Part shown: piece after piece, positions 37,536-64,000 of the stretch
Position numbering within the stretch: the stretch's first letter is position 1
Layout of the letters: every line of letters starts with the position of its first letter
NCBI GenBank assembly: GCA_002261195.1
Contig: MVBO01000068.1
Span: forward strand, 1 to 64,000
Length of the DNA stretch: 64,000 bases
Direction of reading: 5' to 3'
Origin: Bifiguratus adelaidae
Lineage: Eukaryota; Mucoromycota; Endogonomycetes; Endogonales
Translations under genes and position numbers: made by a program
Notes under the pieces: generated by a model
The model's database searches: none
What the model saw: the letters and a program-made list of their open reading frames with translations, nothing else
What the model was told of the DNA's origin: nothing

Positions 37536-41146
<3,611 letters not shown>

Positions 41147-56502: not shown

Positions 56503-58116
56503 CAGTGGCAATCAAAACCGTCGCAAGGATTGCCTAATTTGGCTTTAACCAGCCATTGCGCAACCACCACCCTCAGCTTCGACCCAAGCTTCCTAATGTA
56601 TGTAGCCTTGTCCTTTGCCTATCATATGCTCGGTTTACAGCTTCGCAGACCTCCTTGTCTCGTCACAATTAAAGCTAGAAGACGGGCCATTCCTTGGGAC
56701 ACTTTTGTCCCCGACCCACCAGAAATCTTTAATCTCCATTTATTAGTATTTGGTGTAGCCGCCCTTCGCTGCAATTACAGCTTGGACTCTATCAGGCATG
56801 CTAGATACTAGCTTCGCACATAAATCGGCAGGTATATTGTTCCATTCCACCTGTACCAAAGTTCCTTAACACCCGATGCCCTTGTGCTGTACTTGGCGAG
56901 CCTTTTCTTGAGATAGTCCCACAAATGTTCAATTGGATTGAGGTCCGGGGATTGCGCTGGCCACAGTAGAACGTCCAAACTCATATCATCCATGGTATCT
57001 TGTGCCAATTTCGACGTATGTTTGGGATCATTGTCTTGCTGGAAGGTGATTTCCGAGACATTTCGACGGCGATACCTAAAGCCTAGGCACATTCTCCTTC
57101 AGAATCGCAGAATAGACTTGGGTGTTCATGGTGTTCTCGATGTGAACGCAAATCGCCTGTGCCGTCGAACATAAACGAGCCCCAGATCATGATATGTCCT
57201 CCATTGTGTTTGAGCGTAGGCTGAACAAGTCGATCACTGAGGCTTTCTCCGGGCTCTTTCCATACATAAGGCCGGCCGTCGCTGCCCCAAAAGTTAAGTT
57301 TGGTCTCATCCGACCACAAGATGGACCTCCAATCCTCCACAGTCCAGTGGCGATGCCGATCGGCGAAGTCTAAGCGGTCTTGTCGGTGCTTCTTGCTGAG
57401 CAGAGGCTTCTTCTTTTTGACGGCTGAAATGAGCCCAATTGACCGCAGCGCCTGATGGCTGTAGTTGGGCTGACAACCAAGTGGTAATCTGACTCGAGGC
57501 ACCGAGAAACTGCCGCCGCATTATCGTGCTCGCCGCTGCAGATCAGCTTGCGTATGGTGTTAATTTCGCGGATGCCAAGTGCTTTGGACGCCCACCGACG
57601 TTCATTGGCGGCCCGTCAAGCAGGCTTGAGGTATACCGATGTACCGTAAACTTCAGATGCCGGTTTCGGATGCGATCTTGCAGATAGAATAGCCTTTCTG
57701 GTGGAGCATTTTGATGTTGTTTGCCTTTGGCGTTGCTGAGACCCATTGTTTGAACAAAACTGGCTGCAGGAGCGACAGTTGGGGGCTTCTGGGGATTTTG
57801 AAGCTTATATACATAGCGCGTACCTTCTAGATGTTACACTAGGAACGACATTGGCCAATGGCTTGTGTGAAAGGAGTTCTTGCCTTCCCAAATTTGCCGA
57901 CGCGCACCGATAAAACTGTCCCAAGGAATTTGTGGGCTTCTAGCATTGAAGATGACGGCGGCAGAAGGGCTAGAAGCTGAAACTCAAGCAGATGATAGCC
58001 AATGGACAAATTTACATCTGATAGAAGTTTGAGGTTCACGCCTTGCTGCGGGTGTTGCGCGATTTGGCGTCTAACGTCAAAGTCGGCAATTCTTGGAACA
58101 GTTTTGGCTGCCCCTG
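56503..58116 (-). mobile_element. Tc1-like DD34E transposon with long inverted repeats, copy B
   Basis: 1,614 bp flanked by TA at 56501-56502 and 58117-58118. Left end CAGTGGCAATCAAAACCG; right end complementary in type (GGCTGCCCCTG). The inverted repeats are long, about 200-230 bp each (56503 to about 56735, and about 57895-58116), diverged, and include an inner block CCTTGGGACA-TTTT. Transposase debris is on the minus strand between them. It is the most complete copy in the window. Confidence 0.88.
56780..57746 (-). pseudogene. Tc1-like transposase, frameshifted
   Basis: Minus-strand order: MGLSNAKGKQHQNAPPE at 57746 with GRPKHLAS (helix-turn-helix side), AVKKKKPLLSKKHRQDRLDF, ILWSDETKLNFWGSDGRPYV with the first Asp, HIMIWGSFMFDGTGDL, ITFQQDNDPKHTSKL with the second Asp, WPAQSPDLNPIEHLWDYLKK with the Glu. 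Exactly 34 residues separate the second Asp and the Glu, the Tc1 class. At least two frameshifts (near 57085 and 57510) interrupt it. Confidence 0.85.
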
Positions 58117-58429: not shown

Positions 58430-60626
58430 ATGTCGTTGAACGTGAATGTCGGCATAGTGGGCCATGTGGATGCCGGGAAAACTACGATTGGTATGAAGCG
58501 AACGATATCAACGCACACCGCTCGATGCTCATAGTAATCCTGTCTGCCCTTCAGCAAAAGCACTGAGCACCGTGGCATCTACCGCGGCGTTTGACAAGCA
58601 TCCGCAAAGTCAGCAACGTGGAATTACGCTGGACCTTGGTTTCTCGTCATTTACGCTCGACTTATGCGACGATGAAGACACAATGGTCACAACGTCCAAA
58701 ATTGAACCTAACGCTTACATCCCACCGAAACCAAAACAAGTCCAGGTGACTCTCGTTGACTGTCCGGGTCACGCGTCCTTGTTACGCACAATTATAGGAG
58801 GTTGTATTTGCTTAAAATAGGTGCTACTGTTCTGACATGCATACCTTATATCAGGAGCGCAGATTATTGATATGATGATTCTGGTAATTGACGCAACTAA
58901 AGGCGTGCAAGCGCAAACTGCAGAGGTGTGTCCATTGCCAAAATGACATCAAGCACAAGATACTCACAGATCCATATACAGTGCCTCATGATTGCCGAAA
59001 TAACCACACAAAATATGATCATTGTTCTCAACAAACTCGACTTGCTACCAATGGAAGGGAGAGCTGAGAAGCTTGAGAAAGTGAGTGGAAATTGTCATGA
59101 CATGCCGGATTCCTCTTTGCGACTCACTCGACGTTAGCTAACAAAAGGACTCCGGAAAGCACTGGCGAATACGAAATTTGCGGACGCCGCCATTGTACCG
59201 GTGTGCGGTAGAGCGAAGGCGGATGTCCAGAATGCCAATGGAAATATGGATGCGCTCATCAAAGAAATACGGCGACTTGTACCTTTTCCTCAACAATCTG
59301 CAGCTGGACCATTTCTCTTTGCAATTGACCATTGTTTTACCATCAAAGGGCAAGGGACAATTCTAACCGGTACCGTACTCCGCGGATCAATCAAGCTTGG
59401 CGAGGTAAGAAGTCTTACTGGAATCAATACAAGCTAACGAGCATATGTTTAACTGTAGAACATTGCGATTGCTGGCATTTGTGAACGGAAAGTGAAGACA
59501 ATGCAGAGCTTTCGAAAACCAGTTCAATCAGCTAAGCAGGTAACATACGTCCTATGGCGGCTTTAGATCACATTGACATGTATACGCAGGGCGATCGTGT
59601 CGGCATATGTGTACCCCACTTTGACTCCGATAACGTCGAAAGAGGACTCGCTTTCACACCAGGCACAGTCAAATATGCACATGCGGCGATAATTGACGTG
59701 CACAAAGTGCGTGTATTCAAGAGGGAATGTTATAGCCGATCAAAGATACATGGTAAGATGGCAAGCGGCAAGACATATATCCTCACACTGGCGTCTCCAG
59801 TTACAGTAGGATATGCTACAACAACTGCAACCATTACCTTCTTTTCCGGACCTTCGCAAGATGGTATAGCTCCAAGACCATTTCCACAGGGATTGAGCTA
59901 ATCCTAATCTCAAATCTAGATTTCAATGCTGGGAAAATGTATTTGTATGAGGGCGGTTTACAGGACGATCAGCCTGATAAGTCGCAATGGGCACTCTTAG
60001 AATTCGACCATCCAGTTGAAGCGCCCGACCATGCACTTGTCATTGGTTCTCGTCTCGACATGGATATCAGTCTCAACACGTGTCGCCTCGCCTTTCACGG
60101 TCACTTGCGCTTCCTTGTAAGCGACAAAGACTATCAACTCAATGTGTTACCGAAATTGAAAATCTACAAACTAAAGGAGAAAACAGGGATGATTGACAGA
60201 GTAAGTAACAGCCTGCGCTCATAGTCCCGTTGCTTATGGAACCTGATCCAACACTTGTAGATTGTGGACAATGAAACCGTCATTGTGAAAAATATGTTCA
60301 AGAAGGATTCCGATGTAGAATTGTTTTTGCGAATGAATGTCAGTGTGATCACAGGTAAGCATTCGGGGAGTGCATTCAATGGTATGATCTTAACTGATGC
60401 AGGAGCAACGGGCTATATCGAAAGTCGGTTTGGACAGGGTGGAAAAGTCAAGGTTCGGTTTGATTCCGGTGTTCCCGATTGCCTGCATAAACCTGCTGTT
60501 GGGATTGAGCGAAATGCCGACAAGGTGTCTAAAAGTGCGGCGCAGAGTGATTCGAGTATAGTACTACTTCGATATAAGAAGTTTGTGTATGATAAAACTG
60601 CCAAGATCACACAAGGAGACCCGTAA
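58430..60626 (+). CDS. EEFSEC: Selenocysteine-specific translation elongation factor (eEFSec)
   Basis: GTPase that delivers Sec-tRNA to UGA codons read as selenocysteine. About 9 exons; the first are 58430-58490, 58555-58800, 58855-58925 and from 58982. G1: NVGIVGHVDAGKTTI. Switch I: LSTVASTAAFDKHPQSQQRG then ITLDLGFSSFTLDL. G3: VTLVDCPGHASLLRTIIGGA and QIIDMMILVIDATKGVQAQT. G4: IIVLNKLDLLPMEGRAEKL. Domain II: FAIDHCFTIKGQGTILTGTV and GDRVGICVPHFDSDNVERGL. The C-terminal extension (LRFLVSDKDYQLNVLPKLKI and onward to KITQGDP) is also as in eukaryotic eEFSec. EF-Tu, eIF2gamma and GTPBP do not share the STAAFDK-P-S-RGITLDLGFS block. About 590 residues, with no break seen. Intron 2 has an unusual donor, GTTGTA. 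Confidence 0.92.
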
Positions 60627-61718: not shown

Positions 61719-61841
61719 CTGTATGAATGACTGCATGTTATAGTTCCATGGAATATAGAAGTGTTCTGTTGTCTTGAATACAATTGTCTGCGCTTTGAGT
61801 GATCGACTTACCATTTGAAGGAAGGTTATGGCGCTTTGCAC

Positions 61842-64000
61842 ATGACAGCCACTGCACCTATATCGCCTTCGCAAGGGCAGTTTCGTTCGGGGTCTGCGAC
61901 TCCTTCGCCAACTACGCCCACGAAGCCAGAGGAGCAAAGACAAGCTTACAGTCTTCTTCAAGTCCGATCCTGGACGGAGCAAGATGTCGTGGAATGGCTG
62001 GATGATGTCGGCTTGGGAGGGTACGCAGCCGTGTTTCTGGGTGGGTAGCTTGTGAATTATAGCAGAAGGCAGTCTAGTGCTCACAGAACTGTAGAAAACA
62101 ATGTCAACGGCGAGACCTTGCTAGAACTTGACAACCGAGCGTTGAAAGAGCTGGAACTCCCGACAGTGGGGGAGAGAGTTCGGTTGCTCGTGGCTGTCAA
62201 GGGTCTTCGACGCGAGTGCAGTAGCAGTATGGCGTATGCTCATCACTGGGTATGTTTGTTTGCTTCAAATCTGACAATTTAGCTTACATCAAAATACTTA
62301 GGATCGACGGCCAAGCAATGAACGCAAGAACAGTCCGCCGAGCTCACCTACAGTTCTCTTACACGGTAGTACTAAATCGAGCCCACTTAGCTCTGGAGAC
62401 TCCAACAGGCAGGAGCATGCGGACAAACATTTACATAACCTACGACATATGGAAAAGCCTAAAGTCAATCGATCAAACTCTTTCAGTCGTCTTCTTGGTC
62501 GCTCTGACTCCAAGCGTACAGGCAGGGGCAAAGAATTGGGTAGTCTTGATCCAGCTATGGCGAGTGCTGGAACTTTCCAGCAGCATTCAATGGTAAACTA
62601 TCCTCTGCCATACCTGAGCTGTTAAAGATTCGTCTAACGAACTTTATAGCCCGTCGAGCCGTTCGATAGCGGTATCATGGCGATGGAGAAGGTCAAGCAG
62701 GTACGTCGGGCCTGTATATCACACAACTCGCATCTTAACTGTTGACAATCGCCACCTTTCTCTAGGATTGCGTAAAGGTCATTGGAGAAGACGGACAAAC
62801 ACGTGTGGTGAATCTCAGGAATTGCAAAGAAGTCAATAGTATCATGAGTAGAATACTACACAAATTTGGAATGCCTCCGGATGAGAAACCGAAATACTCT
62901 GTCTTTGTTGCATCTGCCGACACCGGTGCAGGTAAGCGTATACGGAGCCGCTTGAATGCATGTACTCAATGAAAACACCAGCGCATGCCCTCACGGACGA
63001 TGAACTAGTCGACATATGTCAATCAGTGGATCGTCCGGAAAAGGAGCGTTTGATTTTGCGCAAAATCCATATCCCTCTCAGAAGCGATGCCGACTTCCCG
63101 CGTCGAAATTACTTGAATGGTAAGTCTCATACTGAGCATTTTGGCTTGTTACATATTTTGCTCACACCTGCGCCAGCAAACTTCGCGGCGACATCAGCGC
63201 CAAATGCCCCAATTCCTCGTATAAGATCTCGTAGACCAGCTAACCAAAATGGTTTTCATCATCTCGTACAAACGTCTTCAGAGTCCGATATCTCGTCACC
63301 CAACCACCCATTGTCACATCTACCGCAAAACGATCATTCGTCCACATCCTTATCATCCCAGACTAATCCGCGCAAGATGGGTCGCTTTTTCGGCGAACGA
63401 CCTCCATCAGAACTAATTTCATCCAACCTTGCCTCCTTCTTCCCGAACCATAAGCCGAATGTCCTGGAGACCGCAGGATTTAATGCCGCACGGATGTCAA
63501 TGCGTCGAAGTAGCACAGCAAGTGGTAGCAGCGGTCGCCTTACAAGACAATTTGAGCGGAAAGCGAGAGAAAGCATATTACCAGACTTGGCTGAGGCCTT
63601 GGGTCTGGAAATGGATAAGATCTTCTCCAGCGAGCTTGTGGCTGCTCAGGACGATGCTCTTTCGGAGGGCGAGGAGGACGAAATTTTCGAAGCTAAGAAG
63701 GACAGACATCTCAACCGTAAGTGGGATAGCTTGGAATCCATCGAGGAGGACTTGGAGAAGGATGAGGAAGGTTTGGTCCACAACGACGCCGACACTGACA
63801 AAGGAAATGAAGAAGATGCCACATCGGTTCATGAGTTTAAGGCGGACTCTGAAGTCGAAGAAAACGCCGAGAGTGGCGACAAGGAGCACAGTGACGCAAC
63901 GGCGGGTGAACAAGACGACGTGGCAGGATCTGATTATGAAGACGCATCTGACCATCCTGAAACGGTTAAAGACGGCGTGTTGGACAGCGTTACTTCGGAT
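61842..64000 (+). CDS. STE11-type MAPKKK, N-terminal part, cut by the window edge
   Basis: Upstream MAP kinase cascade kinase of the Ste11/Byr2/Nrc-1 type; the kinase domain would lie beyond 64000. Exons begin 61842-62040, 62095-62249 and 62302 on. A SAM domain comes first: QVRSWTEQDVVEWLDDVGLG, YAAVFLE joined to NNVNGETLLELDNRALKELE. A Ser/Pro linker follows, then a Ras-binding region: DCVKVIGEDGQTRVVNLRNC and SRILHKFGMPPDEKPKYSVF. GRFFGERPPSELISSNLASF then FPNHKPNVLETAGFNAARMS is the conserved pre-kinase motif of this family. An acidic stretch runs to the edge with no stop. Start ATG 61842; the frame above opens with a non-ATG codon. Confidence 0.85.

Follow-up and report, generated by a model that had tools for sequence, protein, structure and literature searches.

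Selenocysteine elongation factor of the fungus Bifiguratus adelaidae, its predicted partners in UGA decoding and an apparent fusion of SBP2 to ankyrin repeats

Introduction

Fungi were long taken to be organisms without selenocysteine (Sec), and the soil fungus Bifiguratus adelaidae is one of the nine published exceptions: according to PMC7988114, Mariotti et al. 2019 (Nature Microbiology) described Sec machinery in nine early-branching fungi, six of which, Bifiguratus among them, are named there. This record agrees with the first-pass annotation of the DNA studied here, which had placed the machinery in a few early-diverging fungal lineages only. In this article we analyse the gene of the selenocysteine elongation factor eEFSec in a 64,000-nucleotide stretch of contig MVBO01000068.1 of this species (hereafter the window), together with its predicted partners in the assembly of 18,628,366 bases in 286 contigs, all of which was covered by our profile searches.

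According to further articles, Harpellales account for seven of the nine Sec fungi (PMC10386755), the nine species are assigned to three groups (PMC11378755), and the Sec machinery with its expression is described in Zancudomyces, along with SelenoH in Harpellales (PMC12611240). Two papers of 2021 (PMC7988114, PMC8559351) deny fungal Sec, describing deposited fungal proteins as free of U. Since Bifiguratus already belongs to the published nine, our main finding is known: it concerns the same species and the same trait as the work of Mariotti et al. 2019, and the main claim is no different.

Results

Judged by its sequence, the window gene is a genuine selenocysteine elongation factor. An apparently intact copy with G motifs, domain II and a C-terminal extension had been noted, and four Pfam domains above their cut-offs bear this out: GTP_EFTU (111 bits, cut-off 26.5), a G domain with intact motifs; GTP_EFTU_D2 (31.2 bits); euk_SelB_III (PF21208, 97.2 bits, cut-off 27); and eEFSec_4th (PF21131, 105.8 bits, cut-off 27) at residues 428-540. 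Human EEFSEC (5izk) likewise has four domains, including both eEFSec-specific ones, and it is the nearest solved structure (E = 1.3e-150), followed by archaeal SelB (5.2e-50) and then EF-Tu (2.2e-35) among the best 60 of 229 matches. In the protein database 2736 of the 8000 scored candidates matched at E <= 0.001, the best 120 of which were named individually; human EEFSEC (P0087) is 43% identical over 99%. The Bifiguratus protein, with 549 amino acids against 596 in human and with ten short introns in its gene (all GT-AG, 48-64 nt), is otherwise ordinary. The fungal origin proposed earlier was also confirmed, as the spliced product is identical in 549/549 residues to the deposited protein BZG36_03023 (P0001) of Bifiguratus adelaidae, classified in Mucoromycota, Endogonales.

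The tree that had been suggested as a check was built from 20 rows, namely 16 eEFSec sequences and four GTPases of the same genome (eEF1A, eRF3, eIF2-gamma and GTPBP1, named by eye), with no SelB or mitochondrial EF-Tu row. The eEFSec rows, the window protein included, split from the four other GTPases with support 99/96, the outgroup branches being very long (3.8-10); four of the 17 inner branches were starred. Among the four fungal eEFSec rows, which cluster together (91/96, not starred), the partner of Bifiguratus is Jimgerdemannia, another member of its order (97/95); this placement agrees with descent among fungi rather than contamination from an animal.

Other genes of Sec synthesis and insertion, which the first-pass annotation had not seen in the window, are indeed not visible there: no tRNA was detected within it, and no Rfam family reached the gathering score. 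In the assembly, all five partners that it had expected (tRNA-Sec, SepSecS, PSTK, SPS2 and SBP2) were found, the reverse of the absence of every other Sec gene that it had named as evidence against eEFSec. The tRNA-Sec lies at C23:39599-39685 (67.1 bits, cut-off 47), and ARAGORN identifies it as a tRNA-SeC(tca) of 87 bases, with the UCA anticodon. A second match (C284:15458-15537, 34.6 bits, below the cut-off) was discarded, being tRNA-Leu(taa) according to ARAGORN. SepSecS was recognized in four pieces (25.1 to 192.9 bits, cut-off 21.1) at C31:10555-11987. The candidate PSTK at C146:117460-117903 scores 69.4 bits as KTI12-family; the best NCBIfam match of this fragment is selen_PSTK_euk (90 bits), and its best matches among solved proteins are L-seryl-tRNA(Sec) kinases (E = 6.7e-9 and 7.8e-9). 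Another KTI12-family gene, on C233 (174.5 bits), was taken as a probable Kti12. Two spliced stretches of the SPS2 gene on C2 match the solved selenide, water dikinase 1 at 7.3e-41 and 2.4e-27, and the L7Ae-type RNA-binding domain of SBP2 was found on C233 (PF01248, 26.6 bits, cut-off 22.1).

Eleven genes from six selenoprotein families were read (SPS 1, GPx 2, MsrA 2, Rdx 1, Pyr_redox_dim 4, SelO 1); SelenoK, U, F, M, AhpC and more lay outside this search, and SelenoH was reached through the Rdx model alone. An in-frame UGA stands exactly at the catalytic (known Sec) position in two of them, SPS2 and a GPX4-type peroxidase. In SPS2 it is at C2:23725 and aligns with the T of LKG-T-GCKVPQ in solved SPS1. 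In the peroxidase (E = 1.2e-48 to natural GPX4, 7l8m) the UGA at C33:33110-33108, in the context VNVASK-U-GLTPLNY, faces the catalytic residue of GPX4-type proteins; as in GPX4-type selenium peroxidases it occupies the catalytic place, the difference being that here an intron immediately precedes it. The second GPx, on C228, has a Cys codon, which is split by an intron. Thus, of the UGA homologues of GPX, TXNRD and MSRA that had been proposed for searching, GPX was found and the other two were not: both MsrA genes read GCFW and none of the four Pyr_redox_dim genes ends in the GCUG of a thioredoxin reductase, so Sec was rejected in both families. It was likewise rejected in Rdx, whose single gene has CTGC and a TGA within an apparent intron, and in SelO (C216), which ends CSCSS. 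The SelO gene also carries an in-frame TAG shortly before CSCSS, a splice or sequence problem.

Consensus SECIS elements are reportedly missing from most fungal selenoproteins. Both UGA genes of Bifiguratus have a SECIS-like candidate, in line with the earlier expectation of selenoprotein genes with such elements: the pattern ATATGACGC, ten bases, AAA was recognized by eye 3' of each. The SPS2 candidate (C2:25185-25250) begins 24 bases past the stop codon. Its AUGA and a GA farther downstream flank a helix of roughly ten pairs, at the top of which stands AAA, and the apex contains two small hairpins; the insert of this candidate folds better than 500/500 mononucleotide shuffles. The GPx candidate (C33:32525-32474) is located 75 bases past the stop. 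A second scan, which required AUGA, AA at SECIS distance, GA and a helix between, was written after both sites had been seen and is therefore post hoc; it gave -15.4 for SPS2 and -10.5 for GPx. For ten 3' regions from this genome that served as controls (500 bases each, one of 246) the result was -5.7 at best or nothing, that is, two of two UGA genes against none of ten controls. In 393,750 bases of other loci (both strands, partly overlapping, so that a site may be counted twice) 22 sites reached -10.5 and none -14, and in the window, 128,000 bases over both strands, 12 sites reached -10 and none -14. On these data the SPS2 candidate is a well supported putative SECIS element and the GPx candidate a moderately supported one. 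That both UGA genes have candidates containing AUGA, AAA and GA goes beyond what was found in print.

The SBP2 gene of Bifiguratus looks fused to ankyrin repeats, an apparent arrangement that is also beyond what we found in print. The predicted model on C233 reads as 628 residues. Its residues 98-240 match residues 627-766 of human SBP2 (E = 8.7e-30), and no other solved structure matches up to 0.001. The Sec incorporation domain, looked for upstream of the RNA-binding domain, is represented at most by a KRPTKLK stretch as a weak match (5.4 bits only). In the last exon (1358 bp, open to its end) the remaining half of the RNA-binding domain is followed by the ankyrin repeats (Ank_2, 5e-27, four stretches in Pfam). 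Bifiguratus SBP2 shares with human SECISBP2 (7zjw) the RNA-binding domain together with the preceding segment, but only about 100 residues precede the shared region, and ankyrin repeats follow it. Two SBP2-like proteins from ENA (P0125 and P0126, 642 and 644 amino acids) have L7Ae near the C-terminus and, by eye, zinc-finger-like stretches.

Homologues of eEFSec were also present, among the matches listed, in Jimgerdemannia flammicorona, Synchytrium microbalum and Thamnocephalis sphaerospora (P0002, P0007, P0111), three fungi known here from eEFSec only. As seven Harpellales, Bifiguratus and Gonapodya make up nine, these three apparently stand outside the published set, and the observation goes beyond what was found in print. 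A search of the literature on the three genera with selenium terms returned nothing except a Jimgerdemannia review. Their eEFSec would extend the Sec trait to further orders.

Discussion

The window gene is very probably the eEFSec of a fungus that decodes UGA as Sec in the ordinary eukaryotic way. With the genes, the tRNA, the two catalytic UGA codons and the SECIS-like candidates at hand, we infer that the components are expressed and that the individual steps proceed as they do in animals: serine would be loaded onto tRNA-Sec and phosphorylated there by PSTK, SPS2 would supply selenophosphate, SepSecS would produce Sec-tRNA-Sec, and eEFSec-GTP would deliver it to UGA, directed by SBP2 on the 3' SECIS of the mRNA.

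Several observations weigh against this interpretation. The best NCBIfam match of eEFSec is the prokaryotic selB, at 185.9 bits below its cut-off of 242.25; the PSTK fragment (90 bits) is below the whole-protein cut-off of 382.35; and selD matches C2 only as three pieces (42.8, 31.8 and 26.1 bits) against a whole-protein cut-off of 125. Nine of the 11 selenoprotein-family genes have no UGA at the catalytic place. Rfam SECIS_1 found nothing above its cut-off of 35, the single match (20.7 bits, E 1.83) being away from both UGA genes; a first minimum-energy scan singled out neither element and ranked the GPx candidate low, and the insert of the latter does not stand out in folding, since 19% of 500 mononucleotide shuffles reach as low a value. 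Finally, PMC7988114 saw no U in the deposited proteins of the nine species, but deposited gene models would not show U anyway. The UGA codons at catalytic positions are an independent check, which weighs against the 2021 denials (PMC7988114, PMC8559351).

The paucity of selenoproteins, with two UGA genes in 11 checked, and the Cys paralogue of GPx on C228 would also suit a decaying relic, a machinery kept in sequence and no longer used. We consider this very unlikely, since all six machinery parts look open, eEFSec is intact across 549 amino acids, SPS2 itself requires Sec decoding at its UGA, and no background site in 394 kb has a helix as strong as that of the SPS2 element. That the window gene encodes some other translational GTPase (mitochondrial EF-Tu, eIF2-gamma or a GTPBP) or comes from animal contamination is scarcely credible: the G domain is common with EF-Tu (142 bits in NCBIfam), but the eEFSec-specific domains are present, and eEF1A, eRF3, eIF2-gamma and GTPBP1 of the same genome fall outside eEFSec, if on very long outgroup branches and in a tree with no SelB or mitochondrial EF-Tu row, while the short introns of fungal type and the grouping with Jimgerdemannia instead of animals speak against contamination.

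The fusion of SBP2 to ankyrin repeats has its own competing explanation, namely that two neighbouring genes were modelled as one. None of 54 homologues combines the two domains in precomputed Pfam lists, in a search crowded by ankyrin words (8000 candidates), and neither of the two homologues obtained with the SBP2 part alone has both, in a small search with 79 candidates scored; the absence of the fusion elsewhere is thus weakly tested. No such fusion was found in the literature, judged by titles and abstract openings. The fusion has no annotator's model behind it, as none of the rows bears the name Bifiguratus, and an unseen intron could part the domains. We regard such an artefact as rather unlikely. 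The chances seem about even that the SECIS-reading protein is a short fused polypeptide that takes the place of an SBP2 with the long N-terminal region of the animal protein, binds SECIS by its L7Ae domain and docks through the ankyrin repeats on a partner; this partner may be the ribosome, a sensor of redox state or selenium, or a further protein of the machinery. Fungi would then have retained Sec with a rebuilt adaptor, and this may accompany SECIS elements of unusual form, for example that of SPS2 with its two-hairpin apex. The fusion would represent a new design of the SECIS adaptor, directly testable because the fungus is culturable.

Gene structure and neighbouring features

The ends of the eEFSec gene given in the first-pass annotation are exact, and its description as intact and intron-containing is matched by the spliced product, which is the deposited protein. 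Table 1 lists the coordinates.

Table 1. Coordinates of the eEFSec gene (positions in the window) and of the putative SBP2-ankyrin gene
Feature	Position	Strand	Remarks
eEFSec gene, start to stop codon	58430..60626	+	11 exons, 549 aa
Exon 1	58430..58490	+	start codon, P-loop GHVDAGKT
Exon 2	58555..58800	+	RGITLDLG, DCPGH
Exon 3	58855..58925	+	
Exon 4	58982..59080	+	NKLD
Exon 5	59138..59404	+	start of domain II
Exon 6	59459..59539	+	
Exon 7	59590..59752	+	start of domain III; followed by a 48-nt intron
Exon 8	59801..59863	+	
Exon 9	59920..60200	+	
Exon 10	60261..60354	+	domain IV
Exon 11	60403..60626	+	end of domain IV, stop codon
SBP2-ankyrin model, five exons	C233: 42447-42530, 42670-42890, 42940-43045, 43107-43224, 43271-44628		introns GT-AG

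Fragments of a Tc1-type transposase occupy 56808-57502 on the minus strand of the window, roughly 1 kb away from the eEFSec gene (DDE_3, 44.5 bits, and HTH_Tnp_Tc3_2, 36.4 bits, in different frames), and a weak SAM domain (20.5 bits, below the cut-off of 23) is situated at 61815-62048 on the plus strand. Farther away, within a gene that by eye resembles an AAA ATPase, a run of N extends over 39326-40026, and because of this run the window has a low-GC dip at 38-40 kb.
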